Shown: one piece after another, positions 28,001 through 64,000 of the stretch
How positions within the stretch are numbered: the first letter of the stretch is position 1
Layout: each line of letters begins with the position of its first letter
Source: Streptomyces nigrescens
GTDB lineage: Bacteria; Actinomycetota; Actinomycetes; Streptomycetales; Streptomycetaceae
DNA: 64,000 bases
Assembly: GCA_024349765.1 (NCBI GenBank)
Contig: AP026073.1
Span: 3,472,001-3,536,000 of the forward strand
Direction: 5' to 3'
The notes under the pieces: generated by a model
What the model was told of the DNA's origin: nothing
The model's database searches: none
What the model saw: the letters and a program-made list of their open reading frames with translations, nothing else
Program-made: the position numbers and the translations under genes

Positions 28001-29074
28001 TCAGGCTGTGGCCAGTCCCAGGTCGGCGGCCAGTCGGTGCCGGTGCCACGCCGGGGGGCCGAAGAGCTGGGCGGCGCCGTGTGCGCGCTTGAGGAAGCGG
28101 TGGGCGTCGTGCTCCCAGGTGATGCCGATGCCGCCGTGCAGCTGGACCATTTCGCCCGCCACCGTCGAAAGCGCCTCCGAGCAGGCGGACTTGGCGACGG
28201 CTGCACAGCGGATCAGCTCCGGGGAGCCCTCGGCGGCAGCGAAGGCCGCACCGAGTGCCGCCGAGCGTGCCGACTCCACCAGCACGTACGCGTCCGCCAG
28301 TCGGTGCTTCACCGCCTGGAAGGAGCCGATGGGCCGGCCGAACTGGACGCGTTCCTTGGCGTAGGCGACGGTGAGTTCCAAGGCACGCTCGGCCGCGCCG
28401 ACCTGCTCGGCGGCGAGCGCCGCGCAGGCCAGGCTCAGGACGTGCCCCAGGATCCGGTCGCCCTCGCCGTCCGTGCCGATGAGCCGGCCCTCGGCAGCGT
28501 CGAGCACCACGCGCGCCTGGGCCCGGGTCTGATCCATCGTGACCGCTGCCTCGCGGCGTAGTCCGGTGCTGTCCACGGCCACTTCGAAGAGCGAGACCCC
28601 GGCGGTCGTACGGGCCACCACGAGCAGCACGTCGGCCTCGGCACCGTCCAGCACGTGCTCCTTCACCCCGGTGATCAGCCAGGTTCCGCCGCGGCCCGGG
28701 GCGGCTTCGGCCTGGATCGACGCCGGGTCCCAGGAACCTTGCTCGGCCCACGCCAGGCACCCCACCGCGCGGCCCTCGGCGAGACGCGGCAGCAGCTGCG
28801 CGCAGGCCGCCGGGTCATCGGAGGCGAGCAGCGCCTGTACCGCGAGCACCGCGGAGCCGAGGTAGGGGACGGGGCTCAGTGTCCGTCCCAACTCCTCCAT
28901 CACGGCGTGGACCTCCCGGGCCCCGCAGCCCGCGCCGCCGTACTCCTCGGGGACGGCGAGCCCCGAGACGCCGATCTGCTCGGTCAGGGGCCGCCAGGCA
29001 GCCGGACCCTCGTGGCGTGCGAGCAGCGACCGCACGGCGGACCGCAGTGCTTCCTGTTCCTCCGTCAGCCTCAC
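28001..29074 (-). CDS. Acyl-CoA dehydrogenase, small catalytic subunit, FadE33/IpdE2-like
   Basis: Protein of 357 aa, shorter than the usual about 390 aa. N-terminal helical domain 'RLTEEQEALRSAVRSLLARH', then 'GLAVPEEYGGAGCGAREVHA', and the C-terminal 'VAGEMVQLHGGIGITWEHDA' in which Glu aligns with the catalytic base of medium-chain acyl-CoA dehydrogenases. It lacks the terminal 'YAGTNEIQRNIIAERLLG' FAD-binding motif, as expected for the catalytic half of the alpha2beta2 steroid dehydrogenases. By position (fourth after ech, E31 and E32) it matches M. tuberculosis FadE33, which pairs with FadE30 (IpdE1-IpdE2) to oxidise the HIP-CoA side chain. The GTG start has AAAGGAGC upstream. Confidence 0.85.
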   Translation of the reverse strand: MRLTEEQEALRSAVRSLLARHEGPAAWRPLTEQIGVSGLAVPEEYGGAGCGAREVHAVMEELGRTLSPVPYLGSAVLAVQALLASDDPAACAQLLPRLAEGRAVGCLAWAEQGSWDPASIQAEAAPGRGGTWLITGVKEHVLDGAEADVLLVVARTTAGVSLFEVAVDSTGLRREAAVTMDQTRAQARVVLDAAEGRLIGTDGEGDRILGHVLSLACAALAAEQVGAAERALELTVAYAKERVQFGRPIGSFQAVKHRLADAYVLVESARSAALGAAFAAAEGSPELIRCAAVAKSACSEALSTVAGEMVQLHGGIGITWEHDAHRFLKRAHGAAQLFGPPAWHRHRLAADLGLATA

Positions 29075-29137
29075 TCGTCTGCTCCTTTCCGTGCGGCGCG
29101 CCCCCGTCACCCGGTGCGCCTTTGTTGAGGGCCGGGG

Positions 29138-29165
29138 CTCCGTTCCCACACACGTGGGAACGGAG
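29138..29165. terminator. Perfect 12-bp hairpin between two acyl-CoA dehydrogenase genes
   Basis: CTCCGTTCCCAC and GTGGGAACGGAG pair exactly around the loop ACAC, in the 99-bp gap between the FadE32-like and FadE33-like genes of one operon. It may partly terminate or stabilise the transcript, reducing or separating expression of the last gene. Confidence 0.75.
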
Positions 29166-29173
29166 TGTGGGGA

Positions 29174-30214
29174 TCAGGGGGCGAGGACGCGGGCGCGGCA
29201 GGCGGCCGGGGTGCCCCAGGCACCGCGCAGTGCGCGGGCCTTGCGGATCCAGAGGGAGAGGTCCAGCTCCTCGGTGTAGCCGAGGGCGCCGTGCAGATGG
29301 AGGGCGGTGCGGGCCGCGGAACAGGCGGCCTCGCAGGCGGACACCTTGGCCGCCGCGATCTCGGCGCCCGACGACTCGACGTTGGCAGCCAGCGCCAGGG
29401 CTGCGGCGTGCACCAACGGCTCGGCGAACTCCAGGGCGATCAGCGCGTCGGCCAGACGGTGCTTCACGGCCTGGAACGAGCCGATCGCGGCCCCGAACTG
29501 GGTGCGCTGGCGAGCGTATTCGACCGTCCGTGCCAGCAGGGCCCGGCCCAGCCCGAGGGCCTGCGCGGCCGTCGCCAGGGCCGCGACCTCGGCGGCGTGC
29601 GCGGCCGCGGCGGACACCCGTGGACCGCGTGCCAGCACGGTTCCGCCGAGCGGCCGGGACAGTCGGCGCGCGGGGTCGGCGGACGGTTGTACCGGCCCCG
29701 TCACCTCCGTCAGACGTACGGTGTCGCCGTCGACGACGAAGACCGCGTCGGCCGAGTCGGCGTCCAGTGCGTACGGGCTTTCGCCGGATCCAGAGCCGGA
29801 TCCACATCCCGACCCCGATGCATTACCCGAGATCAGGCACAGCGAGGCAACGGTCTTCCCGGACGCGATGCCCGGCAGCCAGTTGGCGGCCGTCGCCTCG
29901 TCGCCGAGCGTGCCGAGCCGGTCCAGCAGGGCCGCCGCGGCCACCGTCTCCACCACCGGCCCCGGCACCACGTGCCGACCCAACTCCCGCAATGCCACGG
30001 CCAGTTCGAGCGGCAGCGGGCCGAGTCCGTCGTGCCGTTCCGGTACGGCCAGGGCGAAGACTCCGGCCTCGGCCAGCCGGGCCCAGACGGCGCGGCCGGG
30101 AGCGGTGTCCCCGGCCGCCCAGGCCCGTACGACCGCAGGGGTGTCGGCGGCCGTCAGCATGGCGTCGAGCGAGCGGGCGAAATCCCGCTGCTCGTCGTCG
30201 AGGAGGAACCGCAT
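29174..30214 (-). CDS. Acyl-CoA dehydrogenase, small catalytic subunit, FadE32-like
   Basis: Protein of 346 aa. Start ATG at 30214 overlaps the stop of the FadE31-like gene (ATGA) and has AAAGGAC upstream. It starts 'MRFLLDDEQRDFARSLDAML'; near the C-terminus 'ALHLHGALGYTEELDLSLWI' carries the Glu that aligns with the catalytic base. The FAD motif of large subunits is absent. An odd Gly/Ser stretch (NASGSGCGSGSGSGESPYAL) is inserted in the middle domain. By order it matches M. tuberculosis fadE32, whose product with FadE31 acts late in ring C/D breakdown. The pairing is inferred. Confidence 0.82.
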   Translation of the reverse strand: MRFLLDDEQRDFARSLDAMLTAADTPAVVRAWAAGDTAPGRAVWARLAEAGVFALAVPERHDGLGPLPLELAVALRELGRHVVPGPVVETVAAAALLDRLGTLGDEATAANWLPGIASGKTVASLCLISGNASGSGCGSGSGSGESPYALDADSADAVFVVDGDTVRLTEVTGPVQPSADPARRLSRPLGGTVLARGPRVSAAAAHAAEVAALATAAQALGLGRALLARTVEYARQRTQFGAAIGSFQAVKHRLADALIALEFAEPLVHAAALALAANVESSGAEIAAAKVSACEAACSAARTALHLHGALGYTEELDLSLWIRKARALRGAWGTPAACRARVLAP

Positions 30215-31392
30215 CACCGGCGTCCTTTCGGCAGACCGAGCAGCCGCTCGGCGATGATGTCGCGCTGGATCTCGTTGGTGCCGGCGTAGATCGGCCCGGC
30301 GAGGGAGAAGGTGTAGCCGTCGGACCAGCTGCCGTGCGCCGGAGCCTCCTCGGCGTCGTCCGACAGCTCGCCGTACGGGCCGAGCAGGTCGAGCGCGGTC
30401 TCGTGGAGGGCGATGTCCAGCTCCGACCAGAAGACCTTGTTGAGGCTCGACTCGGCGCCGAGGGTGCCCCCCGCGGCGATCCGCGAGGCGTTGGCGTAGG
30501 TGAACAGCTGGTACGCGCGGGCGCCGATCACCGCGTCGGCGACCCGGTCGCGCAGCGCGGTGTCGCCCGGGTCGGCCTGCTCGCGCCACAGCGCGGTCAG
30601 TCGCTCGGCGGCGGCCGTGAACCGGCCCGGGCTGCGCAGCGTCAGCCCGCGTTCGTTGCCCGCCGTGCTCATCGCGACCCGCCAGCCCTGGCCGGGCTCG
30701 CCGATCACGTCCGCGTCCGGCACGAAGACGTCCGAGAGGAACAGTTCGGCGAAGGCGGGCTTGCCGTCGAGGCGGCCGATGGGCCGCACGGTCACGCCGT
30801 CCGCGTCCAGCGGGAACATCAGATACGTCAGGCCTCGGTATGGCTTGCCCGCCGAAATGCCGTCCTGGTCACTGCGGAAGAGGCCGAAGGCCCGGTCGGC
30901 GAAGGCGGCCCGGGACGACCAGGTCTTCTGGCCGTTCAGCAGCCAGCCGCCGTCCGTCCGTACGGCCGTGGAGCGGAGCGAGGCGAGGTCCGAGCCGGAC
31001 TCCGGCTCGGACCAGGCCTGGGCCCAGATGACCTCGCCGCTCGCCATGGGCGGCAGGATCCGGGCCCGCTGCTCCTCCGTACCGTGCTCGAAGAGGGTCG
31101 GCGCGAGGAGGTTGATGCCGTTCTGGCTGACCCGGCCGGGCGCGCCGGCCGCGTAGTACTCCTCCTCGAAGACCAGCCACTCAAGGATCGAGGCGGCCCG
31201 GCCGCCGTACGCCTCGGGCCAGGAGACCACCGACCAGCGGTCCGCGAACAGCGTGCGTTCCCACTCCCGGTGCGCGGCGAAACCCTCGGCGGTCTCCAGT
31301 GAGGGCAGGGGCACCGACGGTACGTGGCCGGCGAGCCAGGCGCGGGCCTCCGTGCGGAAGGCGTCCTCCGCCGCCGTGAAGTCCAGGTCCAT
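30214..31392 (-). CDS. Acyl-CoA dehydrogenase, large subunit, FadE31-like
   Basis: Protein of 392 aa. Full acyl-CoA dehydrogenase fold: 'WSVVSWPEAYGGRAASILEW', the flavin-binding 'AQAWSEPESGSDLASLRSTA' and 'NGQKTWSSRAAFADRAFGLF', and the terminal 'GPIYAGTNEIQRDIIAERLL'. At the catalytic-base position there is no Glu (it reads '...SWSDGYTFSLAGPIYAG'), so it should need a small catalytic partner, most likely the adjacent FadE32-like protein. Both ends overlap neighbours by ATGA. Role inferred from synteny: oxidation of a ring-opened CoA ester after HIP degradation. Confidence 0.85.
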   Translation of the reverse strand: MDLDFTAAEDAFRTEARAWLAGHVPSVPLPSLETAEGFAAHREWERTLFADRWSVVSWPEAYGGRAASILEWLVFEEEYYAAGAPGRVSQNGINLLAPTLFEHGTEEQRARILPPMASGEVIWAQAWSEPESGSDLASLRSTAVRTDGGWLLNGQKTWSSRAAFADRAFGLFRSDQDGISAGKPYRGLTYLMFPLDADGVTVRPIGRLDGKPAFAELFLSDVFVPDADVIGEPGQGWRVAMSTAGNERGLTLRSPGRFTAAAERLTALWREQADPGDTALRDRVADAVIGARAYQLFTYANASRIAAGGTLGAESSLNKVFWSELDIALHETALDLLGPYGELSDDAEEAPAHGSWSDGYTFSLAGPIYAGTNEIQRDIIAERLLGLPKGRR

Positions 31393-32249
31393 CAGCCGGA
31401 GGCCTCCTTCATGGCGCGGATGTCCATGCCGCCCAGCGAGTCCCGTGCGACCTCGGCGTTGTGCGCGTGCGCCAGGTGGTGCAGTCCGAAGACGGAGTCC
31501 AGCCCGGTGTGCAGGCCCTGCAGATCCTCGGCCTGGTTGACCGCGCGCTTGGTCAGCGCCAGTCCCAGCCGTGGCATCTCCGCGATGCGCAGTGCCAACT
31601 CCCGTACGGTGCCGTCCAGTTGCTCGCGTGGGACGACCCGGTTGACCATGCCCACCTCGTACGCTCGGCGGGCGCTCATCCGGTCGCCGGTGAAGAGGAA
31701 CTCCTTGGCGATGCGTGGCGGCATCACCCACGGGTGGGCGAAGTACTCCACGCCCGGAATGCCCATCCGCACCACCGGGTCCGCGAAGAAGGCGTCCTCG
31801 GAGGCGACGATCAGGTCGCAGACCCAGGCGAGCATCAACCCGCCCGCCACGCAGGCCCCTTGGACGGCGGCGATGACCGGCTTGGGCAGCTCGCGCCAGC
31901 GGCGGCACATGCCCAGATAGACCTCGGACTCGCGGGCGTAGCGGCTCTCGGCGCCCTCCTTGTCCGAGTGGTCCCACCAGAGCCCGGCCTCGCGGTCGAA
32001 CGGCAGATGCGCGTCCCGCTCCGGGGTGCCGATGTCATGGCCGGCCGAGAAGTGCTTCCCCGCCCCGGCGAGCACGACGACCTTCACCTCGTCGTCGTCG
32101 GCCGCGCGGTAGAAGGCCCGGTCCAGGGCGTAGGTCATCGCGGAGTTCTGGGCGTTGCGGTAGTCGGGCCGGTCCATCGTGACCAGGGCGAGAGGCCCTT
32201 GGCGTTCGTAGCGGACGGGCCCTGAAGACGCAGTGCGGGCAGCGGACAT
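31392..32249 (-). CDS. Enoyl-CoA hydratase/isomerase family protein of the steroid ring C/D operon
   Basis: Protein of 285 aa from the ATG at 32249 (GGAGG upstream). Crotonase fold: 'LALVTMDRPDYRNAQNSAMT', oxyanion-hole 'VVLAGAGKHFSAGHDIGTPE' and 'KPVIAAVQGACVAGGLMLAW'. Instead of the usual catalytic Glu of hydratases in 'GxxE', the segment reads 'VVRMGIPGVEYFAHPWVMPP'. It is the first gene of the ech-fadE31-32-33 operon, behind the 16-bp palindrome at 32263. It lies where M. tuberculosis has fadD3. It may hydrate the unsaturated propionyl-CoA side chain made by FadE30/FadE33 (the EchA13/EchA19-like role); the exact step is inferred. Confidence 0.85.
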   Translation of the reverse strand: MSAARTASSGPVRYERQGPLALVTMDRPDYRNAQNSAMTYALDRAFYRAADDDEVKVVVLAGAGKHFSAGHDIGTPERDAHLPFDREAGLWWDHSDKEGAESRYARESEVYLGMCRRWRELPKPVIAAVQGACVAGGLMLAWVCDLIVASEDAFFADPVVRMGIPGVEYFAHPWVMPPRIAKEFLFTGDRMSARRAYEVGMVNRVVPREQLDGTVRELALRIAEMPRLGLALTKRAVNQAEDLQGLHTGLDSVFGLHHLAHAHNAEVARDSLGGMDIRAMKEASG

Positions 32250-32262: not shown

Positions 32263-32278
32263 CCTAACAATTGTTTGG
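32263..32278. promoter_or_regulatory. KstR2-like operator CCTAACAATTGTTTGG
   Basis: A 16-bp palindrome with one mismatch (core AACAATTGTT) lies in the 110-bp divergent promoter of ech and fadE30. A copy differing by one base lies at 45628 in the echA20/SDR promoter. The sequence differs from the M. tuberculosis KstR2 box (core CAAG..CTTG) but the placement is equivalent. The most likely binder is the TetR protein encoded at 34317. Confidence 0.8.
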
Positions 32279-32359
32279 TAGGTTAACGTACGGGCCCTCG
32301 GCCGTCGAGAAGTCGATCCGCCGGGACGCCCGTCCCACGAGAGCCGCCCGGAGCCGCCC

Positions 32360-33535
32360 ATGAGCAGCAGCGTCGAGGAGTTCCGCACCGAGTTCCGCAG
32401 CTGGCTGCGGGCCCACCTCACCGGGGAATTCGCGGGCCTGCGCGGACGCGGTGGCCCCGGCCGGGAACACGAGGCCTTCGCCGAACGCCTCGCCTGGGAG
32501 CGGCACATGGCCGCCGCGGGCTGGACCTGCGTCGGCTGGCCCAAGGAGTACGGCGGGCGCGGCGCCACCCTCGAACAGCAGGTGGCCTGCCACGAGGAGT
32601 ACGCCCTCGCCGACGCCCCCGCCCGGGTGGGCCACCTGGGCGAACAGCTCCTCGGCCCCACCCTGATGGCCTTCGGCACCCCCGAGCAGCGGGAGCGGTA
32701 CCTCCCCCGGATCGTCGCCGTCGAGGAGCTGTGGTGCCAGGGCTACAGCGAGCCGGACGCCGGATCGGACCTGGCGAACGTCCGGACCCGGGCCGAGCTC
32801 GACGACGCAGCGGACGAATGGGTGGTCACCGGCCAGAAGATCTGGACCTCGCTCGCCCACGCCTCCGACTGGTGCTTCGTCGTCGCCCGCACCGAACCCG
32901 GCTCCACCCGCCACCACGGCCTGTCCTACCTACTGGTCCCGCTCGACCAGCCGGGCGTGGAGATACGGCCGATCACCCAGCTCACCGGCACCTCCGAATT
33001 CAACGAGGTGTTCTTCGACGGCGCCCGCACCGCCGCCGGGAACATCGTCGGAGCGCCGGGCGAGGGCTGGCAGGTCGCCATGGCGACCCTCGGCTTCGAA
33101 CGCGGTGTGTCCACCCTCGGCCAGCAGGTCGGCTTCCGCCGCGAACTCGAATCCCTCATCGAGCTGGCCAAGCGCAACGGCGCCGCCCGGGACCCGCTGA
33201 TCCGCGACCGCATCGCCCGGGCCTGGACCGGCCTGGAGATCATCCGCGGCAACGCACTGCGCATGCTCGACGGCGTCGCGGCCGGCGCCCCCGGCCCGGA
33301 GGCGTCCATCGGCAAGATCTTCTGGGCCACCTGGCACCGTGAGCTGGGCGAACTCGCCATGGACGTGTGCGGCGCCGACGGTATGACGGCCGCCGGAGCG
33401 CCGTACGACCTCGACGACTGGCAGCGGCTCTTCCTCTTCTCCCGCGCCGACACGATCTACGCCGGCTCGAACGAGATCCAGCGCAACATCATCGCCGAGC
33501 GCGTGCTCGGCCTGCCGAAGGAGGTTCGCCCGTGA
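32360..33535 (+). CDS. fadE30: Acyl-CoA dehydrogenase, large subunit, FadE30/IpdE1-like
   Basis: Protein of 391 aa. Motifs: 'WTCVGWPKEYGGRGATLEQQ', 'CQGYSEPDAGSDLANVRTRA', 'VVTGQKIWTSLAHASDWCFV' and the C-terminal 'DTIYAGSNEIQRNIIAERVL'. The position of the catalytic Glu is occupied by 'GADGMTAAGAPYDLDD', so the base must come from a partner. In M. tuberculosis, FadE30 (IpdE1) with FadE33 (IpdE2) dehydrogenates 5-OH-HIP-CoA, the first beta-oxidation step on the ring C/D propionate. It is divergent from ech with the 16-bp operator between, and overlaps the next SDR gene by GTGA. Confidence 0.87.
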   Translation: MSSSVEEFRTEFRSWLRAHLTGEFAGLRGRGGPGREHEAFAERLAWERHMAAAGWTCVGWPKEYGGRGATLEQQVACHEEYALADAPARVGHLGEQLLGPTLMAFGTPEQRERYLPRIVAVEELWCQGYSEPDAGSDLANVRTRAELDDAADEWVVTGQKIWTSLAHASDWCFVVARTEPGSTRHHGLSYLLVPLDQPGVEIRPITQLTGTSEFNEVFFDGARTAAGNIVGAPGEGWQVAMATLGFERGVSTLGQQVGFRRELESLIELAKRNGAARDPLIRDRIARAWTGLEIIRGNALRMLDGVAAGAPGPEASIGKIFWATWHRELGELAMDVCGADGMTAAGAPYDLDDWQRLFLFSRADTIYAGSNEIQRNIIAERVLGLPKEVRP

Positions 33536-34320
33536 CCTCGGTCCCGCCCCGCTACGTACCCGGCCACCAACTGCTCGCCGGCCGCACCGCCGTCATCACC
33601 GCGGCCGCGGGCGCCGGAATCGGCGGCGCGACCGCCAAGCGGCTGCTGGAGGAAGGCGCGGACGTCGTCCTCTCCGACGCCCACGCCCGCCGCCTCAAGG
33701 AGTCGGAGGCGGAGCTGGCAGGCGAGTTCGGCGCCGACCGCGTCGCCGCCCTGCCCTGCGACGTCACCGAGGAATCCCAGGTCGCGGCCCTCTTCGACCT
33801 GGCCGAGGAACGCCACGGCCGGCTCGACATCGTCGTCAACAACGCCGGGCTCGGGGGCACCGCCGACCTCGTCGACATGACCGACGAGCAGTGGGACAGG
33901 GTCCTCGACGTCACCTTGAACGGGACCTTCCGCTGCACCCGCGCCGCGCTCCGCCGGATGAAGGCCGCGGGCAGCGGCGGTGTCATCGTCAACAACGCCT
34001 CGGTCGTCGGCTGGCGGGCCCAGCAGGGCCAGTCCCACTACGCCGCCGCCAAGGCCGGCGTGATGGCCCTGACCCGCTGCGCCGCCCTGGAGGCCGCCGA
34101 CTTCGGAGTGCGCGTCAACGCCGTCTCGCCGAGCCTCGCCATGCACCCCCACCTGGTGAAGGTCACCACGCCCGAGCTGCTGGCGGAGTTGACCTCCCGC
34201 GAGGCGTTCGGCCGCTACGCCGAGCCGTGGGAGGTGGCCAACGTCATCGTCTTCCTCGCCAGCGGCTACTCCTCGTACCTCACCGGGGAGGTCCTGTCGG
34301 TCAGCAGCCAGCACCCGTGA
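33532..34320 (+). CDS. ipdF: Short-chain dehydrogenase, IpdF-like
   Basis: Protein of 262 aa from the GTG at 33532, overlapping the fadE30 stop. Classical SDR: cofactor motif 'GRTAVITAAAGAGIGGATAK', 'NNAGLGGTADLVDMTDEQWD', and catalytic Tyr/Lys in 'QSHYAAAKAGVMALTRCAAL'. Position directly after fadE30 and before the TetR gene corresponds to Rv3559c (IpdF) in M. tuberculosis, which interconverts the 5-oxo and 5-hydroxy forms of the HIP-CoA skeleton. The substrate assignment rests on synteny and family. Confidence 0.82.
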   Translation: MTSVPPRYVPGHQLLAGRTAVITAAAGAGIGGATAKRLLEEGADVVLSDAHARRLKESEAELAGEFGADRVAALPCDVTEESQVAALFDLAEERHGRLDIVVNNAGLGGTADLVDMTDEQWDRVLDVTLNGTFRCTRAALRRMKAAGSGGVIVNNASVVGWRAQQGQSHYAAAKAGVMALTRCAALEAADFGVRVNAVSPSLAMHPHLVKVTTPELLAELTSREAFGRYAEPWEVANVIVFLASGYSSYLTGEVLSVSSQHP

Positions 34321-34994
34321 GAGGAGAGCGCCGGACCCCGGCCTCCAACACAAGCGATAGGAAGACCGCGGTCAGTAGCAGTAGCAGGAGCAGGAGGAAG
34401 ACTGTCACGAGCCCGGCGCCCGAGCGGCGCGAGGAGCTCCTGGCCACCGCCGCCGAGGTGTTCGCGGCGCAGGGTTACCGCGCCACCACCGTCCGAAAGA
34501 TCGCGGACGCGGCGGGCATGCTCGCGGGCAGCCTCTACTACCACTTCGACTCCAAGGAGTCGATGCTCGACGAGATCCTCGCCACCTTCCTGGACGAGCT
34601 CCGGTCCCGGTACGACGCCGTGCTGGCCGCCGGCCTCGGGCCCAGGGAGACCATCGAGGCCCTGGTCACCGAGTCCTTCCGGGAGATCGACCGGCACCGC
34701 GCCGCCGTCGCCATCTACCAGAAGGAGTCCCCGCACCTGCGCACCCAGCCCCGCTTCGGCTACCTCACCGCCTCGCAGCGGAAGTTCGAGAAGGCGTGGC
34801 TGGGCACGCTGGAGCGCGGCGTGGCCGCCAAGGTCTTCCGCGCCGACCTCGACATCCGGCTCACCTACCGCTTCGTGCGCGACACCGTCTGGGTCGCCGC
34901 GAGCTGGTACCGCCCGGGCGGACAGCACGGCCCGGAGGAGATCGCCCGCCAGTACCTGTCGACGGTGCTGGAAGGCATCGCCGTCCGGGACTGA
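34317..34994 (+). CDS. kstR2: TetR family repressor, KstR2-like
   Basis: Protein of 225 aa from the GTG at 34317, overlapping the ipdF stop as GTGA. The first about 35 residues are Ser/Arg-rich (SDRKTAVSSSSRSRRK), an extension not usual in KstR2. HTH 'ELLATAAEVFAAQGYRATTV' ... 'AAGMLAGSLYYHFDSKESML'. The C-terminal domain has 'YQKESPHLRTQPRFGYLTAS' and 'FVRDTVWVAASWYRPGG', in the style of KstR2, which in mycobacteria is released from DNA by HIP-CoA. It lies between ipdF and fadA6 as in M. tuberculosis. Expected targets are the near-identical palindromes at 32263 and 45628. Confidence 0.85.
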   Translation: MRGERRTPASNTSDRKTAVSSSSRSRRKTVTSPAPERREELLATAAEVFAAQGYRATTVRKIADAAGMLAGSLYYHFDSKESMLDEILATFLDELRSRYDAVLAAGLGPRETIEALVTESFREIDRHRAAVAIYQKESPHLRTQPRFGYLTASQRKFEKAWLGTLERGVAAKVFRADLDIRLTYRFVRDTVWVAASWYRPGGQHGPEEIARQYLSTVLEGIAVRD

Positions 34995-36646: not shown

Positions 36647-36670
36647 CCGACCTGCCGGTGGCCCCAGGGC

Positions 36671-42049: not shown

Positions 42050-42119
42050 CCCTGTGTTCGAGTCCCTGTGTTCGAGGGGAAGTTCAGCTGACGAGGGGAA
42101 ATCAGCTGACGAGGGGAAG
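42050..42119. repeat. Two adjacent short tandem duplications (14 bp and 18 bp)
   Basis: CCCTGTGTTCGAGK is doubled at 42050-42077 and TCAGCTGACGAGGGGAAR at 42084-42119. The second pair includes the stop codon region of ipdC and places extra stops after it. Confidence 0.88.
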
Positions 42120-45605: not shown

Positions 45606-45627
45606 GAGCAGATCAGCTACCTTTCCA

Positions 45628-46460: not shown

Positions 46461-46481
46461 TCTCCACCGAGAGGATGCACC

Positions 46482-51484: not shown

Positions 51485-51712
51485 ATGCAGCCGGTGGAGT
51501 GCGCGACCTGCGGCAACCAGGTCCTCTGCGAGAAGTTCAGCAGGGCCCACACCTCCGTGCAGTGGACCGCCGAAGCGGCCGTCGTCTGCACCGAGTTCCG
51601 TGCCCGGGTGACCGCGGGTGCGACCAGCGCCCGGATACGCACCTGCCGGGCGCTGCGGCGGAGCATCGATGACGCGGTCGAGAACGGCACTCTGGAGATC
51701 ACCGATGTCTGA
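51485..51712 (+). CDS. Small cysteine-containing protein between kshA and kshB
   Basis: Protein of 75 aa starting one base after the kshA stop and overlapping kshB by 8 bp. It has Cys6, Cys9 and Cys15 ('VECATCGNQVLCEKFS') and two later Cys (VVCTEF, RTCRAL), no signal peptide and no membrane segment. The C-x2-C at the N-terminus could bind a metal, but the set does not match a known ferredoxin or rubredoxin. Its position suggests a role linked to the KshAB monooxygenase. I do not recognise a named family. Confidence 0.65.
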   Translation: MQPVECATCGNQVLCEKFSRAHTSVQWTAEAAVVCTEFRARVTAGATSARIRTCRALRRSIDDAVENGTLEITDV

Positions 51713-56571: not shown

Positions 56572-56672
56572 CGGCACCTCCCACACGGACGGCCGGGCCA
56601 GCCCCTGGCTGCGGCCGTAATCTCCGGTATGGGATGGATGCTGCAGTGGATTCCGGCTGTCGGGAAGAGGGT

Positions 56673-56796: not shown

Positions 56797-57972
56797 ATGC
56801 GCGTGCGCGAGGACCGTGTACTTGCCGCGGTCCGTGAACTCGCCCCCGCCCTGCGCGCGCGGGCGGCCGGGACCGAGGCGCTGCGCCGCGTGCCCGGGAC
56901 CTCCGTCAAGGAGCTGGAGCACGCCGGCTTCTTCCGGCTGCTGCAGCCCCGGGCGTACGGAGGGCTCGCCGCCGACCCGGCCGTCTTCTACGCCGCGGTG
57001 AAGGAGATCGCCAAGGCCTGCGGTGCGACCGGTTGGGTCGCCTCGGTCGTCGGTGTGCACCCCTGGCATCTGGCCCTCTTCGACCCGCGGGCGCAGGAGG
57101 AGGTGTGGGGCGAGGACCGCTCCGCCCGGATCTGCTCCTCGTACGCCCCCACCGGGACCGTCACCCCGGCCGCCGGCGGCTTCCGGCTGTCCGGCCGGTG
57201 GCACTTCTCGTCCGGCTGCGACCACGCCCAGTGGGCCCTGCTCAGCGGTCTCCTCGCGGACGGCGAGGGTCGGCCGGTGGACATGCGGACCTTTCTGATT
57301 CCCCGCTGCGCGTACCGCATCGACGACGTGTGGGACACCGTCGGTCTGCGCGGCACCGGCAGCAATGACCTCGTCGTCGAGGACGCCTTCGTTCCCGACC
57401 ACCGGACCCTCGGCTACGGCCCCATGTCCGCACTGAGATGTCCGGGCCACGAGGTCAACGCCGAACCGCTGTACCGGCTGCCGTACGCCGCCGTCTTCAC
57501 CACCACCATCGCGACCTCGATGGTCGGTATCGCCGAGGGCGCGTATGAGGATCATGTCGCGACGGTCCGCGAGCGCGTGCGCGTCTCCTACGGGCCGAAG
57601 GTCGCCGAGGACCCCTTCGCGCAGGTGCGCATCGCCCGCGCCGCGAGCGACATCGACGCGGCCTGGCTCCAACTGACCCGTAACATCGACGAGTTGTACG
57701 CCCTCGCCAGGCGCGGTGCGGAGCTTCCGATGGAGTTGCGTGTCCGCACCCGTCGGGACCAGGTGAGGGCTACCGAGCGTGCGGTCGCGGCGGTCGACCT
57801 GCTGCGGGAGAACGCCGGCGGTAGTGCCCTGCGCGCCGGCGACGACGTCGTGCAGCGCGCCTGGCGGGACGTGCACACCGGACGCGGGCAGGCGGCCAAC
57901 GACGTGGAGCGGGCGCTGGTCCTCGCCGGCCGGCACGCGCTCGGGCTGGACGTCCAGGATCCCATGCTCTGA
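56797..57972 (+). CDS. hsaA1: Flavin-dependent 3-HSA hydroxylase oxygenase, HsaA-like copy 1
   Basis: Protein of 391 aa from the ATG at 56797; a GTG at 56803 with AGAGGG 6 nt upstream is equally possible. Acyl-CoA-dehydrogenase-fold monooxygenase: 'SVKELEHAGFFRLLQPRAYG', 'CGATGWVASVVGVHPWHLAL', 'GRWHFSSGCDHAQWALLSGL', 'GLRGTGSNDLVVEDAFVPDH' and 'NAGGSALRAGDDVVQRAWRD'. HsaA with reductase HsaB hydroxylates 3-HSA to the catechol 3,4-DHSA. It is nearly identical in plan to the second copy 140 bp downstream and is separated from it by two hairpins. Divergent from the IclR regulator. Confidence 0.87.
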   Translation: MRVREDRVLAAVRELAPALRARAAGTEALRRVPGTSVKELEHAGFFRLLQPRAYGGLAADPAVFYAAVKEIAKACGATGWVASVVGVHPWHLALFDPRAQEEVWGEDRSARICSSYAPTGTVTPAAGGFRLSGRWHFSSGCDHAQWALLSGLLADGEGRPVDMRTFLIPRCAYRIDDVWDTVGLRGTGSNDLVVEDAFVPDHRTLGYGPMSALRCPGHEVNAEPLYRLPYAAVFTTTIATSMVGIAEGAYEDHVATVRERVRVSYGPKVAEDPFAQVRIARAASDIDAAWLQLTRNIDELYALARRGAELPMELRVRTRRDQVRATERAVAAVDLLRENAGGSALRAGDDVVQRAWRDVHTGRGQAANDVERALVLAGRHALGLDVQDPML

Positions 57973-58112: not shown

Positions 58113-59279
58113 ATGGCCGAAGATGTGCTGGCAGCGATCCGGGCCCTGGCGCCGAGTCTGCGCGAGCGCGCGGGCGAGGCCGAGGCGCTGCGCCGGGTGC
58201 CGGACACCTCCGTCAAGGAGCTGGCGGACACCGGCTTCTTCCAGCTGCTGCAGCCCAAGGCCTTCGGTGGCCGGGCGGCCGACCCCCTGGTCTTCTACTC
58301 GGCGGTCAAGGAGATCGCCAAGGCGTGCGGCTCCACCGGCTGGGTCGCCTCGGTGGTCGGTGTCCACCCCTGGCACGTGGCCCTGTACGACCCGCGGGCC
58401 CAGCAGGAGGTGTGGGGCCAGGACCCCAAGACCCGCATCGCCTCCTCGTACGCGCCCACCGGCAAGGCGACCGCGGTCGACGGCGGCTTCCGGCTGTCCG
58501 GCCGGTGGCACTTCTCCTCCGGCTGCGACCACGCCCAGTGGGCCCTGCTCGGCTGCCTGGTCCCGGACGGCGAGGGCCGGCCGGTGGACATGCGGACCTT
58601 TCTGATCCCCCGCTCCGAGTACCGCATCGACGACGTGTGGGACACCGTGGGCCTGCGGGGCACCGGAAGCAACGACGTCGTGGTGGAGGACGTCTTCGTC
58701 CCCGACCACCGGGCGCTCAGCTTCGGTCCGGTGACCGCCCTGAAGGTGCCCGGCCACGAGCTCAACCCCGAGCCGCTGTACCGGCTGCCGTACGCCGGTG
58801 TGTTCACCACGACCATCTCCACCCCGATCGTCGGCATCGCCGAGGGTGCTTACGAGTCCTACGTCGAGGCCACCCGGCAGCGCGTCCGCGTCTCCTACGG
58901 GCAGAAGGTCGCCGAGGACCCCTTCGCGCAGGTGCGCATCGCCCGCGCGGCCAGCGACATCGACGCGGCCTGGCTCCAACTGACCCGCAACATGGGCGAG
59001 ATGTACGCCCTGGCCCAGCGCGGGGCGGAGCTCCCGATGGAGCTGCGCATCCGCACCCGCCGGGACCAGGTGAGGGCCACCGAGCGTGCGGTCGCGGCGG
59101 TCGACCTGCTGATGGAGAACGCCGGCGGCAGCGCGATGCGCACCGGCCCCAACCCGGTCCAGCGCGCCTGGCGCGACGCCCACACCGGCCGTGGCCACGC
59201 CGCGAACGACCCGGAGCGGGCGCTGGTCATGTACGGGCAGTGCGCGCTCGGCATCGACACCCACGACACCATGGCCTGA
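58113..59279 (+). CDS. hsaA2: Flavin-dependent 3-HSA hydroxylase oxygenase, HsaA copy 2
   Basis: Protein of 388 aa from the ATG at 58113 (AAGGGG upstream). It has the same motifs as copy 1: 'SVKELADTGFFQLLQPKAFG', 'CGSTGWVASVVGVHPWHVAL', 'GRWHFSSGCDHAQWALLGCL', 'GLRGTGSNDVVVEDVFVPDH'. By eye most positions are identical, the differences being concentrated in the N-terminal 25 residues, around residues 105-125 and the C-terminus. It is followed by hsaD, hsaC and hsaB with short gaps, so this is the copy in the canonical operon position. Confidence 0.9.
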   Translation: MAEDVLAAIRALAPSLRERAGEAEALRRVPDTSVKELADTGFFQLLQPKAFGGRAADPLVFYSAVKEIAKACGSTGWVASVVGVHPWHVALYDPRAQQEVWGQDPKTRIASSYAPTGKATAVDGGFRLSGRWHFSSGCDHAQWALLGCLVPDGEGRPVDMRTFLIPRSEYRIDDVWDTVGLRGTGSNDVVVEDVFVPDHRALSFGPVTALKVPGHELNPEPLYRLPYAGVFTTTISTPIVGIAEGAYESYVEATRQRVRVSYGQKVAEDPFAQVRIARAASDIDAAWLQLTRNMGEMYALAQRGAELPMELRIRTRRDQVRATERAVAAVDLLMENAGGSAMRTGPNPVQRAWRDAHTGRGHAANDPERALVMYGQCALGIDTHDTMA

Positions 59280-59291: not shown

Positions 59292-60161
59292 ATGGCAGAG
59301 CTCACCTACGAGTCGACGTCCCGGACCGTCAAAGCGGCGGGGCTCACCCTCCACTACCACGAGGCCGGTCCGGACAACCGGCCCGACGCACCCGTCGTGA
59401 TCATGCTGCACGGCGGCGGCCCCGGCGCCTCCGCCTGGAGCAACTTCGGTCGCAACCTCCCCGTCTTCGTCCGGCAGTTCCGCACCCTGCTGGTCGACCA
59501 GCCCTGCTTCGGCCGCTCGGACAAGCCGGAGCTCGACAAGGACTACTTCAGCTACAGCGCGAACGCCGTTGCCGCGCTGATGGACGAACTGGGCATCGAC
59601 CGCGCACACTTCGTCGGCAACTCGCTCGGCGGCGGAACCTGCGTCCGGATGGCCCTGAACCACCCGGACAAGGTCGCCAAACTGCTGCTCATGGGCCCCG
59701 GCGGCATCTCCGTCAACCTCTTCGCCCCGGACCCGACCGAGGGCATCAACCGGCTCTTCGAGTTCAACGCCGCGCCGGAACCCACCAAGGACCAACTGCG
59801 CGCCTTCCTCGGCGTCATGGCGTACGACCAGTCGATCGTCACCGACGAACTGATCGAGGAGCGCTGGGCCTCGGCCACCGACCCCGACACCAGGCTGGGC
59901 ACCGCCCGGATGGGGGCCGCCTTCGCCAACCCCGCCTGGGCCGAGGACTGGATGCTCTGGCGCGAGGCCCACCGCATCACCCAGCCGGTGCTGCTCACCT
60001 GGGGCCGCGAGGACCGGGTCAATCCGCTCGACGGCGCGCTGGTCGCCCTCAAGACCATCCCGGACGCCCGGCTGCACGTCTTCCCGCACTGCGGCCACTG
60101 GGCCCAGGCCGAGCAGGCCGACGAGTTCAACCGCCTCGCCCTCGACTTCTTCTCCCACTGA
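59292..60161 (+). CDS. hsaD: 4,9-DSHA hydrolase (meta-cleavage product hydrolase), HsaD
   Basis: Protein of 289 aa, alpha/beta hydrolase of the BphD type. Oxyanion region 'VVIMLHGGGPGASAWSNFGR', catalytic Ser111 in 'HFVGNSLGGGTCVRMALNHP', Asp241 in 'LLTWGREDRVNPLDG' and His269 in 'LHVFPHCGHWAQAEQADEFN'. It splits the C-C bond of the ring A meta-cleavage product (4,9-DSHA) to HIP and 2-hydroxyhexa-2,4-dienoate, feeding HsaE and the ring C/D genes. It starts 12 bp after hsaA2. Confidence 0.93.
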   Translation: MAELTYESTSRTVKAAGLTLHYHEAGPDNRPDAPVVIMLHGGGPGASAWSNFGRNLPVFVRQFRTLLVDQPCFGRSDKPELDKDYFSYSANAVAALMDELGIDRAHFVGNSLGGGTCVRMALNHPDKVAKLLLMGPGGISVNLFAPDPTEGINRLFEFNAAPEPTKDQLRAFLGVMAYDQSIVTDELIEERWASATDPDTRLGTARMGAAFANPAWAEDWMLWREAHRITQPVLLTWGREDRVNPLDGALVALKTIPDARLHVFPHCGHWAQAEQADEFNRLALDFFSH

Positions 60162-60178
60162 CCGACGAAAGGCTGACC

Positions 60179-61072
60179 ATGGACATCCGTGCTCTCGGCT
60201 ACCTGCGCCTGGAGACCACCAAGCTCGCCGAGTGGCGCACCTACGCGCTCGACATCCTCGGCCTGGTGGAGGCCCCCGGCACCACCGAGGACACCCTCTG
60301 CCTGCGCCTGGACGACCGCTGCCACCGCATCGTCATCCAGGCCGGCGAGGGTGACCGGCTGCTGGCGGCCGGCTGGGAGGTGGCGAACGCCGCCGCACTC
60401 GCCCGGGCGGCCCAGGAGCTGGAGGCGGCGGGCGTCGCCGTCAAGCCCGCCGACGCCGCCGCACTCGCCGAGCGCCGCGTCCAGGGCCTGATCCACCTGA
60501 CGGACCCCTGCGGCAACCCGCTGGAGATCTACTGGGGTCAGGCGCAGGACCACACCGCGCTCGGCACCCCGTACGGCAACCGCTTCGTCACCGGCGACCT
60601 CGGCCTGGGCCACGTGGTGCTGCCGGTGTCGGACGCCGAGGCGGCGCTGGACTTCTACGAGAACCTGCTCGGCTTCCAACTGCGCGACTCGATGAAGCTC
60701 CCGCCACAGGCCGTCCCCACGGCCGCCGAGCAACGGGACTTCCACTGGATGCACTTCCTCAGTCCCAACCGGCGCCACCACAGCCTGGGACTGTACCCCG
60801 GTGCACTGCCCCCCGGCATCGTGCACTTCATGGTGGAGCTGGAGACCCTCGACGACGTGGGCCGCGGCCTGGACCGGATGAGCGCCGCGGGCATCCCCAT
60901 CGCCTCCACCCTCGGCCGCCACACCAACGACCACATGGTGTCGTTCTACGCCCAGGCTCCCGGTGGCTTCCAGGTCGAGTACGGCTGGGACGGCCTGCTC
61001 GTCGACCCGGCCGCCTGGGTGGCCAAGGAGATCACCGCCGACAGCTTCTGGGGCCACCAGTGGAAGGGATGA
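60179..61072 (+). CDS. hsaC: 3,4-DHSA extradiol dioxygenase, HsaC
   Basis: Protein of 297 aa, two-domain type I extradiol dioxygenase. The N-terminal half lacks metal ligands. The C-terminal half has His145 ('GLGHVVLPVSDAEAALDFYE'), His201 ('NRRHHSLGLYPGALP') and Glu267 ('GGFQVEYGWDG') as the Fe(II) facial triad. It cleaves ring A of 3,4-DHSA to 4,9-DSHA. The 3' end overlaps hsaB by ATGA. Confidence 0.93.
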   Translation: MDIRALGYLRLETTKLAEWRTYALDILGLVEAPGTTEDTLCLRLDDRCHRIVIQAGEGDRLLAAGWEVANAAALARAAQELEAAGVAVKPADAAALAERRVQGLIHLTDPCGNPLEIYWGQAQDHTALGTPYGNRFVTGDLGLGHVVLPVSDAEAALDFYENLLGFQLRDSMKLPPQAVPTAAEQRDFHWMHFLSPNRRHHSLGLYPGALPPGIVHFMVELETLDDVGRGLDRMSAAGIPIASTLGRHTNDHMVSFYAQAPGGFQVEYGWDGLLVDPAAWVAKEITADSFWGHQWKG

Positions 61073-61575
61073 CGGACAGTCGGGTGGCGGGCCGTCAGAT
61101 CGACCCGGCCGGCTTCCGGGACGTCCTCGGCCGTTTCGCCACCGGCATCACGGTGGTGGCGGCACTCGACGGCGCGGAGCCCGTCGGGTTCGCCTGCCAG
61201 TCCTTCGCCTCGCTCTCCCTGGACCCCCCGCTGGTCATGCTGGCCGTCGGCAACACCTCCACCAGCTGGCCGAGGATCGAGCGGGGTGGCCGCTTCTGCG
61301 TCAACATCCTCGCCGAGGACCAGCAGGACACCTGCGCCGCACTCGGCCGCAGCGGCGCCGACAAGTTCGCGGACGTGCCCTGGCGCACCTCGCCGCACGG
61401 CACCGTGCTCATCGACGGCGCCCTGGCCACCGTGGACTGCCGCCTGGCCGCGGTCCACGAGGCCGGCGACCACTCCATCGTCACCGGCGAGGTCGTCGAC
61501 CTCGCCGCCCAGGAGAACGGGCGACCGCTGCTCTACTTCCGCAGCCGCTACGCCACCGGCAGGTTTGCGCCCTGA
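61069..61575 (+). CDS. hsaB: Flavin reductase component, HsaB
   Basis: Protein of 168 aa from the ATG at 61069, which overlaps the hsaC stop. Flavin_Reduct domain: 'FRDVLGRFATGITVVAALDG', 'GFACQSFASLSLDPPLVMLA', 'GRFCVNILAEDQQDTCAALG' and 'GDHSIVTGEVVDLAAQENGR', closing with 'PLLYFRSRYATGRF'. It supplies reduced flavin to HsaA with NADH. Two HsaA copies but only one HsaB are present in the window. Confidence 0.92.
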   Translation: MTDSRVAGRQIDPAGFRDVLGRFATGITVVAALDGAEPVGFACQSFASLSLDPPLVMLAVGNTSTSWPRIERGGRFCVNILAEDQQDTCAALGRSGADKFADVPWRTSPHGTVLIDGALATVDCRLAAVHEAGDHSIVTGEVVDLAAQENGRPLLYFRSRYATGRFAP

Positions 61576-61685
61576 GTGCCCACCGCGCACCGAGCACGCA
61601 CGCGCACCGAGCACTCACACGCCCCCGGGCACGCACGCGCACGGAGCACGGCCTCGTGCAACCGACCCAGAAGGAAGCCACCCCC

Positions 61686-62573
61686 ATGCCGATCGATGTC
61701 GAGAAGGTGACCTCCGCCCCGCCCGTGCGCGCCGCGGCGGTCTGGGACGAGCGCGAGGTGCGGCTGTACCACCTGGCCCTCGGCGCGGGGGTCCCCGAGA
61801 CCAGCTCCGACGAGCTGCGCTACGTCTTCGAAGGACACGAGCAGGGCCTGCAGGTACTGCCCACCTTCGGGGTGGTGGCCGGCGGCACCGGGGGAGTGGG
61901 GTTCCAGCTCTTCGACCTGCCGGGCGTGGACATCGACCTGGCCGCCGCGCTGCACGGCGGCCAGGAGATCACCGTGCACCGCCCGCTGCCCGCCGCCGCC
62001 CGGGCCACCACGATCACCCGGGTCCCGGCCGTGTACGACAAGGGCACGGCCGCCGTCATCGTCCAGGAGTCCACCCTCCTCGGCGAGGACGGCCGGCCGC
62101 TGATCACCCAGCGGAACCAGATCTTCGTCCGCGGCGAGGGCGGGTTCGGCGGGGACCGCGGTCCCTCCGAGCGTCTCCCCGCACCGGACCGGGAACCCGA
62201 CCGGTTGCTGGACCTCCCGACGCTCCGTCAGCAGGCACTGCTCTACCGGCTCGCAGGTGACGGGAACCCGCTGCACGCCGATCCCGCCACCGCCCGCCGT
62301 GCCGGCTACGACCGCCCCGTCCTGCACGGGCTGTGCACCTTCGGGATGGCGGTCAAGGCCGTCACCGACCGCCTGCTGGGCGGGGACGCCACCCGCATCG
62401 CGGCGTGCCGTACGCGCTTCGCGGGCGTGTTCTTCCCCGGCGAGACCCTGCGGCTGCGCATCTGGGCCGCATCCGAAGGGGACGAGGGCGGCGCCGGCTA
62501 CCGGCTCACGGCCACGGCAGCGGACCGCGACGACGCCCCCGTCCTCACCGACGCCCGACTCACCACACGCTGA
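61686..62573 (+). CDS. MaoC-family (R)-specific enoyl-CoA hydratase 2
   Basis: Protein of 295 aa with two hot-dog folds. The first half is degenerate ('ETSSDELRYVFEGHEQGLQV' at the MFE-2 hydratase start). The second half has the hydratase-2 motif 'LYRLAGDGNPLHADPATARR' with Asp192 and His197, then 'GYDRPVLHGLCTFGMAVKAV'. This is the layout of eukaryotic MFE-2 hydratase and of mycobacterial ChsH3/Hsd4B-type steroid side-chain hydratases. It lies between hsaB and kstD, so a steroid CoA ester is the likely substrate. A 110-bp gap separates it from hsaB. Confidence 0.87.
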   Translation: MPIDVEKVTSAPPVRAAAVWDEREVRLYHLALGAGVPETSSDELRYVFEGHEQGLQVLPTFGVVAGGTGGVGFQLFDLPGVDIDLAAALHGGQEITVHRPLPAAARATTITRVPAVYDKGTAAVIVQESTLLGEDGRPLITQRNQIFVRGEGGFGGDRGPSERLPAPDREPDRLLDLPTLRQQALLYRLAGDGNPLHADPATARRAGYDRPVLHGLCTFGMAVKAVTDRLLGGDATRIAACRTRFAGVFFPGETLRLRIWAASEGDEGGAGYRLTATAADRDDAPVLTDARLTTR

Positions 62574-62648
62574 TCCGGCCGCCGTTCCACCTGCCACCGC
62601 CCCGGCGCGCCGTGCTCCGGGCCGGACCGACACGACGAGGTTGACGCG

Positions 62649-64000
62649 ATGAACAACACCTGGGACCACACCTACGACGTGGTGGTGGTCGGCTCCGGCG
62701 CGGCGGGAATGGCCGCGGCCCTCACCGCCCGCCTGCGCGGACTGACCGCCCTCGTGGTGGAGAAGACCGCCGTCTACGGCGGCACCACCGCCCTGTCCGG
62801 CGGCGCGGTCTGGGTACCGAACAACTTCCACCTGGACGAAGCCGGGCTCGGCGACACCCCCGAGAAGGCCCGCGCCTACCTCGACGCCACCGTAGGCGAC
62901 CGGGTCCCCGCCGACCGCAAGGACGCCTACCTCGCGCACGGACCGCGCATGGTGAAGGAGTTCCACGACCGCACGGCCGTGCAGTTCGTCTACACCCCCG
63001 GCTACTCCGACTACTACCCCGAGCGGCTCGGCGGCTACCCCCAGGGCCGCTCCATCGAACCGCGGATCTTCGACCTGAAGAAGCTCCCGCCCGAGCAGCG
63101 TGCCACCCTGCGCCGGGCGGGGCTGCCCACCTACGGACTGACCATCACCTCCAAGGACTTCCGCCACCTGAACATGGTCGGGCGCACCTGGGCCGGCAAG
63201 CGGACCTCGGCCAAGGTCGGCGCCCGGGCCGTCAAGGCCCTGCTGACCGGCCAGAAGCCGCTGGCCCTCGGCGAGGCGCTGATCGCCCGGATGCGGCGCT
63301 CGCTGGACCTGCTCGGCGGCGACCTGTGGCTGTCCGCACCGCTGACCGGTCTGGTGGAGGAGAACGGCCGGATCGCCGGCGTCCGGGTCACCCTCGGCAA
63401 CCGGGAGCTGGCGGTCCGCGCGACCGGGGGTGTGGTCCTCGCCTCGGGCGGCTTCTCGCACCACCAGCAGCTGCGCGAGAAGTACCTGCCCGCACCCACC
63501 TCCACCGAGTGGAGCGCCGCGGCCGAGGGCCAGACCGGCGACGGCCTGGAACTGGGCCTGGCCGCCGGCGCCGCCGTCGACCTGATGGACCGGGTCTGGG
63601 GCGCGCCCTCCGTGGTGCCGCCCGATGGCAAGCCGTTCTTCCTCGTCGCCGACCGCGGCGTGCCGGGGATGGTGATCGTCGACTCGGCGGGGGAGCGCTA
63701 CGCCAACGAGGCCGCCCCGTACCACGAGTTCGTCGACGCGATGTACGCCCACGACCGGCCCGAGGCGACCGCCGTGCCGTCCTGGCTGATCCTCGATGCC
63801 ACCTCGAAGTCCCGCTACCTCTTCATGGGGCTGTTCCCGGGCCAATCGTTCCCCAGGCCATGGCTGGAGACCGGATTCGTCAAGAAAGCCGCCTCCGTCG
63901 AGGAGTTGGCCACACGGATCGGCGCCGCCCCGGAGCGGCTGCGCGCCACCGTGGACCGCTTCAACGGCTTCGCCCGCGCCGGCCGCGACGAGGACTTCCA
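62649..64000 (+). CDS. kstD: 3-ketosteroid delta-1-dehydrogenase, KstD (partial, runs off the window)
   Basis: The first 450 residues are present and the frame is open to the window end; KstD proteins are about 510-570 aa. FAD-binding start 'YDVVVVGSGAAGMAAALTAR', 'VEKTAVYGGTTALSGGAVWV', the active-site region 'GYSDYYPERLGGYPQGRSIE' with the Tyr-rich segment of KstD, 'GGVVLASGGFSHHQQLREKY' and 'VIVDSAGERYANEAAPYHEF'. It introduces the C1-C2 double bond into 3-ketosteroids; together with KshAB this triggers ring B opening and gives 3-HSA, the HsaAB substrate. Two-base-pair context: ATG at 62649 with GAGG about 9 nt upstream. Confidence 0.92.
   Translation, partial: MNNTWDHTYDVVVVGSGAAGMAAALTARLRGLTALVVEKTAVYGGTTALSGGAVWVPNNFHLDEAGLGDTPEKARAYLDATVGDRVPADRKDAYLAHGPRMVKEFHDRTAVQFVYTPGYSDYYPERLGGYPQGRSIEPRIFDLKKLPPEQRATLRRAGLPTYGLTITSKDFRHLNMVGRTWAGKRTSAKVGARAVKALLTGQKPLALGEALIARMRRSLDLLGGDLWLSAPLTGLVEENGRIAGVRVTLGNRELAVRATGGVVLASGGFSHHQQLREKYLPAPTSTEWSAAAEGQTGDGLELGLAAGAAVDLMDRVWGAPSVVPPDGKPFFLVADRGVPGMVIVDSAGERYANEAAPYHEFVDAMYAHDRPEATAVPSWLILDATSKSRYLFMGLFPGQSFPRPWLETGFVKKAASVEELATRIGAAPERLRATVDRFNGFARAGRDEDF

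Follow-up and report, generated by a model that had tools for sequence, protein, structure and literature searches.

The stretch analysed here (the window: 64,000 nucleotides of Streptomyces nigrescens, C1:3472001-3536000; the genome comprises two contigs totalling 9.33 Mb) carries, between 28 and 64 kb, a cluster of predicted steroid-degradation genes that continues directly beyond the window's end. A first-pass annotation, made from the letters alone, had taken the source to be Streptomyces-like and had listed a steroid gene set in this interval; the genus is indeed Streptomyces, and homology searches returned a homologue for every gene named there. Gene starts given below are approximate (calls from a purpose-written script), and the DNA directly beyond the window is called L003, whose base 1 is window position 64001.

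Genes for rings A and B lie on the plus strand, as assigned by homology. One group encodes an HsaE-like hydratase (47535..48317), an HsaG-like acetaldehyde-type dehydrogenase (48332..49237), an HsaF-like aldolase (49234..50259), the Rieske oxygenase KshA (50281..51483), a small four-cysteine protein that matches no known family (51485..51712), and a KshB-like reductase (51768..52805). The other, divergent from an IclR-family regulator (55699..56586, minus strand), encodes two copies of HsaA that are 79% identical to each other (56797..57972 and 58113..59279), HsaD (59292..60161), HsaC (60179..61072), HsaB (61069..61575), a MaoC-type hydratase (61656..62573), and KstD (62649..64000). KstD had been placed within the window, where most of it is found, but the gene runs on to 64328; the 450 of its 559 residues inside the window match 3-oxosteroid 1-dehydrogenase with 497 bits. 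Both HsaA copies (595 and 629 bits against 450), HsaD (479 against 400), and the HsaG- and HsaF-type enzymes exceed their NCBIfam cut-offs, HsaE and KshB match solely related NCBIfam families under cut-off, and KshA, which has the Rieske motif, finds KshA (4qdc) as its top PDB match with 581 bits. By homology, the ring A/B set of the 9,10-seco pathway (KstD, KshA, KshB, and HsaA-G) is present.

Genes for rings C and D fill the remainder. On the minus strand are three acyl-CoA dehydrogenases, FadE33/32/31-like (28001..31392), and a crotonase over the PRK08290 cut-off (31392..32177); opposite them on the plus strand are a FadE30-like acyl-CoA dehydrogenase (32360..33535), an IpdF-like SDR (33532..34320; PRK07831, 458 bits, cut-off 336), a KstR2-like TetR regulator (34392..34994), and a FadA6-like thiolase (35067..36224; PRK07801, 714 bits, cut-off 591). 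Further along, genes on the minus strand encode an IpdC-like flavoprotein of the FabK family (42102..43184), the IpdB-like beta (43181..43948) and IpdA-like alpha (43945..44811) subunits of a CoA-transferase, and an EchA20-like protein (44808..45605; PRK07938, 426 bits, cut-off 260), followed on the plus strand by two SDRs (45684..47393; PRK07856 and PRK07791). The top PDB match of IpdB is 6co6, a 'probable CoA-transferase beta subunit' (335 bits), which we take to be IpdB itself; IpdA, whose CoA-transferase match is weak (55 of 128.5 bits), owes its name to its place beside IpdB. The FadE numbers, those of FadE31 and FadE30 included, follow gene order, which is conserved; the genes at 28001 and 29174 have the acyl-CoA dehydrogenase IpdE2 as top match, far under cut-off (239 and 115 of 450). 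Thus ipdA, ipdB, ipdC, ipdF, echA20, fadA6, and the fadE genes occur together, with ipdA and the fadE numbers assigned partly by place. The TetR protein matches 2ibd, an unnamed regulator (220 bits), and then KstR2 4w97 (191 bits), and we count it as the KstR2 orthologue expected of a regulon for HIP, the C/D-ring remnant.

The first-pass annotation had described the gene order as that of the mycobacterial KstR2 regulon. This holds for the company of ipdABCF, echA20, fadA6, the fadE genes, and the KstR2-like regulator but not for fadD3, whose mycobacterial position is taken here by the crotonase, for which an EchA13-like role is possible. The order is better described as that of a Streptomyces lineage of the pathway. 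It is broken at about 36.5-40.4 and 52.9-55.6 kb by genes without close relatives in 23 compared clusters. These stretches (36473-40422 and 52895-55566) hold AraC, peptidoglycan-binding, DUF2690, MFS, ArsR, and flavoprotein genes; apart from the peptidoglycan-binding gene, which was left out of the comparison, AraC found a 34% relative in one cluster and MFS 32-40% relatives in three, and DUF2690, ArsR, and the flavoprotein found none.

Past KstD come two SDRs, a FadD3-family ligase, a Baeyer-Villiger monooxygenase (BVMO), an HSL-family esterase, an SDR, and a second HSL-family esterase. The ligase (L003 2050-3621, plus strand; 705 bits, cut-off 657) lies at window coordinates 66050-67621, in the flank where a search for fadD3 had been advised. 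The BVMO (L003 3618-5237, plus strand) has the steroid monooxygenase (STMO) of Rhodococcus rhodochrous as top PDB match (803 bits, against 592 for phenylacetone monooxygenase), carries the type I BVMO fingerprint, and so qualifies by sequence as a steroid BVMO. The first esterase (L003 5337-6251) and the SDR next to it (L003 6248-7012) are on the minus strand, and the esterase scores 349 bits against a cut-off of 350. STMO, esterase, and FadD3-type ligase, which lie just outside the window and are absent from the earlier annotation, point to pregnanes.

The regulator of a KstR2 (HIP) regulon binds its operators and is released from them by HIP-CoA. The available part of PMC3068626 gives the KstR2 motif as AnCAAGnnCTTGnT, with electrophoretic mobility shift assay sites in the matching M. 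tuberculosis promoters; this strict motif has no match in the window at up to one mismatch. Aligned promoters from 19 genomes (EchA20/SDR stretch) and 17 genomes (crotonase/FadE30 stretch) were footprinted and share a conserved palindrome block, whose consensus is ACCAAACRYTTGTT. A relaxed motif derived from this block, ANCAARNNYTTGNT, was counted afterwards and occurs without mismatch in 16 of the 19 EchA20/SDR promoters (exceptions G268, G161, and G103) and in 16 of the 17 crotonase/FadE30 promoters, the exception being the window's own. The window has three matches at up to one mismatch, against 0.58 expected (2 of 100 shuffles reach three); two are inside the cluster, and the third, at 19004, is outside it. 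From promoter alignment and motif count we predict operators at 32266..32279, in the crotonase/FadE30 divergent promoter and with one deviation, and at 45627..45640, neither assigned a strand. All 15 loci with a C/D-ring core described below contain the relaxed motif without mismatch (13 with two sites and two with one), and it is absent from eight loci with a lone kstR2 and from 30 simulations. The KstR2-type operator is conserved in this changed form.

We searched 295 same-genus genomes for HsaC (E 1e-60 or better) and found it in 36, at 71-100% identity in 24 (the window's genome included) and at 43-47% in the other 12. The 24 were treated as orthologue genomes, and flanking DNA was taken for the other 23, several pieces ending at contig ends. 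The cluster order was repeated in this DNA from relatives and is therefore not due to chance. STMO, at 70% identity or more, occurs in nine of the 24 (G152 has just a fragment, on a different contig) and, at E 1e-200, in none of the 271 genomes without an HsaC orthologue. A luciferase-like oxygenase (LLM) at least 83% identical occurs in 17 of the 24: 15 that lack STMO, plus G162 and G268, where STMO is inside the cluster and LLM elsewhere; G224 combines STMO with a broken LLM. One or the other is present in 24/24 orthologue genomes and in 10/271 others (Fisher p = 1e-27, uncorrected for kinship). The ten, found with LLM at E 1e-180, rule LLM out as a marker exclusive to orthologue genomes. 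In these ten (L259-L268) LLM stands with an SDR and an esterase, adjoining it in 10/10, and in nine it lies by C/D-ring genes; in the tenth (G181) it is beside KshA, KshB, and KstD-like genes.

Eight of the nine STMO genomes (the ninth, G152, is fragmented) have an esterase homologue in the same fetched region as STMO, and 14 of the 15 LLM-type genomes have one in their fetched DNA, the copy of G086 being about 37 kb from LLM. In G162, G268, and G224, which are STMO-type genomes, none of the three LLM copies has esterase and SDR next to it. An HsaB-like flavin reductase (at least 69% identical to the G161 copy, G161 counted) is found in the fetched pieces of 10 of the 15 LLM-type genomes. We draw the putative role of LLM, with caution, from its resemblance (46% identity) to an N. 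aromaticivorans LLM encoded on plasmid pNL2, which is probably the one that PMC12239570 names as a homologue; a second LLM type, 59-69% identical, in 12 of the 24 orthologue genomes is a reason for this caution. We also observed a second type of Streptomyces steroid cluster (L046, L065, L066, L085, and L096), in which identity to the window's proteins is about 46% for HsaC and about 60% for KshA, and one genome, G289, that carries both types. A literature search covering titles and abstract starts, with most subscription journals outside its coverage, returned no paper on the linkage of STMO or LLM to steroid clusters in Streptomyces.

The 75-aa protein between KshA and KshB has four cysteines that are invariant over 23 aligned sequences. 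Its gene is at most 38 bases from KshA in all 23 Streptomyces loci with KshA in the fetched DNA (G012 has no KshA there) and 72-90 bases away in five clusters of the second type; it also occurs in steroid loci outside Streptomyces, where its distance to KshA in RHA1 is about 8 kb. Pfam and NCBIfam assign it no family, its predicted structure (mean pLDDT 82.5) has no PDB fold match at E 0.001 or better, and the hits of a profile search were weak and partial (best E 0.14), most of them small proteins of RNA polymerase and the ribosome. We would guess that it takes part in 9alpha-hydroxylation.

How the window's genome came by this cluster was addressed with trees. The rpoB tree groups it with G175 and G265 (100/100), whereas a tree of six concatenated cluster proteins places it among STMO-type genomes (branches 98/99 and 99/100); approximately unbiased (AU) tests, on groups picked after the trees were seen, rejected the swapped groupings (p 4e-40, 3e-41, and 3e-6). 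The STMO/LLM label requires four changes on the rpoB tree and two on the cluster tree. In a relative, Streptomyces sp. NBC_00841, the cluster with STMO is on a 1.51-Mb linear plasmid. Because of the strong tree conflict and this plasmid-borne copy, we favour horizontal transfer between members of the genus. A vertical history with many losses would account for the similar flanking genes, judged by eye, at several LLM-type clusters, but it has to explain away both the conflict for the window's genome and the plasmid, and we regard it as quite improbable. A recent mycobacterial import is ruled out, since 394 genomes sampled from the class hold no HsaC outside the genus that is more than 53% identical. 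Elsewhere the window's genome carries another kstR2-like gene, standing alone at C1:5038118-5038735 (L279), with no operators or steroid genes nearby and with neighbours similar in length in G265 and G175; it is likely a relic and also speaks for movement of the cluster.

A search for KstR2 (E 1e-60) showed that the C/D-ring half is distributed differently. KstR2 was found in 18/18 tested HsaC-orthologue genomes and in 15 of 19 without an orthologue (G001-G022 minus G004, G012, and G015; among them G014 has HsaC at 44%), as well as in G004 and G181; G002 and G021 each have an extra lone kstR2. All 15 KstR2 loci without an HsaC orthologue (L280-L285, L289, L293-L298, L300, and L301) contain ipdF, fadA6, ipdA, ipdB, ipdC, echA20, FadE31- and FadE32-like genes, and an SDR. 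The full cluster is thus rare in the genus and a core of ring-opening genes common, the rarity of ring A/B being judged by HsaC across the genus. Among the references of PMC5380842 is a 1977 study whose title concerns metabolites that Streptomyces rubescens makes from HIP.

These distributions allow a bolder reading in which steroid catabolism is split. Near-core, KstR2-controlled C/D genes with intact operators (IpdF, IpdC, EchA20, IpdAB, FadA6, and FadE31/32) would act on hydrindane acids, perhaps steroid remnants from other bacteria; the A/B half, with FadE30 and the FadD3-type ligase, would be a rare mobile add-on that turns its host into a complete degrader and is equipped with one of two unrelated Baeyer-Villiger oxygenases for C21 entry, and the four-cysteine protein would be part of the 9alpha-hydroxylase. 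In the fetched pieces of the C/D-only loci, however, FadE30 occurs in 2/15 and FadE33 in 2/15, while neither FadD3 nor any ring A/B gene occurs in any of the 15, the rest of these genomes not having been searched for FadD3 or FadE30. With FadE30 and FadD3 absent from most of these loci, our estimate of the split reading fell from a serious minority possibility to a doubtful one, and plain HIP scavenging by the C/D-only loci is likewise weakened.

Taken as a whole, we consider it reasonably probable that the locus is a self-contained, KstR2-linked 9,10-seco cluster that belongs to a lineage specific to Streptomyces, carries an attached C21 side-chain module, and has moved horizontally within the genus. 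The steroid-nucleus degradation proposed earlier gains support from homology as a predicted 9,10-seco ring pathway in Streptomyces. According to the part of PMC12239570 at hand, the Rhodococcus STMO converts progesterone to testosterone acetate, androstenedione lactonisation was not seen, and in Caenibius a BVMO and LLM each yield testosterone acetate. By analogy, the STMO adjoining the window would insert oxygen into the C17-C20 bond of a progesterone-type steroid to give the 17-acetate, the HSL esterase would free the 17-hydroxysteroid, and an SDR would oxidise it to the 17-ketone, so that the linked genes probably remove the two-carbon side chain. KstD and KshAB would then open ring B, HsaAB, C, D, E, F, and G would break down rings A and B, the FadD3-type ligase would activate HIP, and FadE30, IpdF, IpdC, EchA20, IpdAB, FadA6, and FadE31-33 would break rings C and D. 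Gene identity (by homology), gene order, conserved operators, distribution, and tree conflict were observed, whereas all these reactions, the substrate, and the roles of esterase and SDR are what we infer. C21 progesterone-type steroids are the best-supported entry and our first choice; C19 steroids would follow as substrates from the ring genes.

Several points weigh against this assignment, besides the late choice of AU groups. HsaC and HsaB are best matches to their NCBIfam families but fall under the cut-offs (378 against 450 and 215 against 230 bits). L003, which holds FadD3, STMO, and the esterase, has no KstR2-type operator; the FadD3-family ligase, about 30 kb away, thus lies outside the predicted KstR2 regulon, and this module may be under other control. 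The tree comparison uses rpoB, a single gene, and the cluster tree puts STMO-type G103, on a long branch, away from its fellow STMO genomes. STMO-like enzymes may take other ketones. Finally, sterols are possible substrates via CYP125 and FadA5.

This last point touches the earlier view that cholesterol was an improbable substrate, given no mce4 or side-chain P450 in the window. PF02470 (Mce) indeed finds nothing in the whole genome (0 of 1), but a CYP125 homologue (top PDB matches CYP125, 531 bits) lies about 2.2 Mb from the window, together with a FadA5-type thiolase, at C1:1314472-1317117; the thiolase scores 694 bits against a cut-off of 515 that none of 14 control genomes exceeds. The CYP125 and FadA5 of a cholesterol pathway are therefore present elsewhere in the genome, and the exclusion of cholesterol is unsupported. 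The cluster might then serve mainly sterols, CYP125/FadA5 stripping the C27 side chain, the window's genes degrading the rings, and STMO being an extra; Streptomyces peucetius CYP125A13 hydroxylates cholesterol (PMC9728343, part available). With Mce missing and CYP125 found in 77/101 Streptomyces, mostly without this HsaC, we give the sterol explanation a minority standing. Another region, 16-33 kb from CYP125/FadA5 (G000:C1:1333190-1349887; L150 and L151), holds an Rv3520c-family F420-type oxidoreductase over cut-off and long acyl-CoA dehydrogenase, thiolase-like, MaoC, and SDR genes. Bile-acid-type (hydroxylated) steroids, also raised by the first-pass annotation, are touched weakly by the crotonase in the place of fadD3, which is located in the HIP cluster and might be EchA13-like; its top PDB matches are chains named just enoyl-CoA hydratase, and it is present also in 2/15 loci without this HsaC (G018 and G019). 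We judge these substrates unlikely and retain progesterone-type steroids.

Comparison with known systems places this cluster among relatives. STMO-ring gene proximity extends beyond Streptomyces: in 17 of 20 places taken from the stronger STMO matches (55-68% identical) of a class-wide search, STMO relatives lie near HsaA-, HsaC-, or HsaD-like genes (L135, L136, and L137 lack them), with examples in Nocardia, Mycobacterium, Rhodococcus, Amycolatopsis, and RHA1 pRHL1; where found in such named loci outside Streptomyces, identity to the window's proteins is 42-51% for HsaC and 56-64% for KshA. Within 45 kb, Rhodococcus jostii RHA1 pRHL1 has homologues of KshA, KshB, HsaA, C, D, E, F, G, KstD, STMO, and the esterase, but its HsaC is 45% identical, its C/D genes are just weak IpdF- and FadE30-like matches (32-33%), and no IpdABC or KstR2 match occurs in that cluster. 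With the Mycobacterium/Rhodococcus KstR2 regulon, as far as described in the available parts of PMC3068626 and PMC5380842, the Streptomyces cluster shares the KstR2-like regulator, ipdABCF, echA20, fadA6, the fadE genes, and operators in two matching divergent promoters. It differs in an operator half-site that is often CAAA instead of CAAG, in a fadD3 that adjoins STMO while the crotonase occupies its place, and in having no conserved palindrome upstream of kstR2 itself in the aligned promoters. In the pdc cluster of Caenibius tardaugens (PMC12239570, in part), a type I BVMO and a luciferase-like oxygenase acting on progesterone likewise lie close to genes of steroid degradation, whereas in the fetched Streptomyces clusters STMO and LLM are not seen together and an esterase and SDR adjoin them. 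The R. rhodochrous steroid monooxygenase (4aos/4aox) is the best PDB match of the Streptomyces STMO and shares its BVMO fingerprint, but the latter belongs to a ring-degradation cluster. Bergstrand 2016 (PMC4810484, available part) reported 55 of 57 Streptomyces genomes without the pathway and two with it, and '1 in over 50' for the cholesterol pathway; here the HsaC orthologue is in 24/295, and neither the STMO/LLM linkage nor the common C/D core was found in that part.

Elsewhere in the genome, rpoB (C1:8181360-8183180) stands about 70 kb short of where the 8.25-Mb contig ends, and given this position the contig ends are probably not chromosome ends. L004:6113-8865 encodes a short peptide followed by 568-aa, 83-aa, and 142-aa proteins, a set that, we presume, resembles lasso-peptide genes.

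The two parts of steroid catabolism thus have different distributions in a major soil genus, which raises the puzzle of what purpose a conserved C/D-ring-opening core serves without FadD3 and FadE30 beside it, and a small conserved protein beside 3-ketosteroid 9alpha-hydroxylase is newly pointed out. If our reading is true, the locus would provide a defined gene set for full progestogen breakdown in an actinomycete. The 2025 Caenibius study, in the part of PMC12239570 available, calls the acetate hydrolase unknown and leaves the LLM reductase unassigned; for these two steps, the acetate hydrolase and the flavin reductase for LLM, the Streptomyces clusters would supply candidates.

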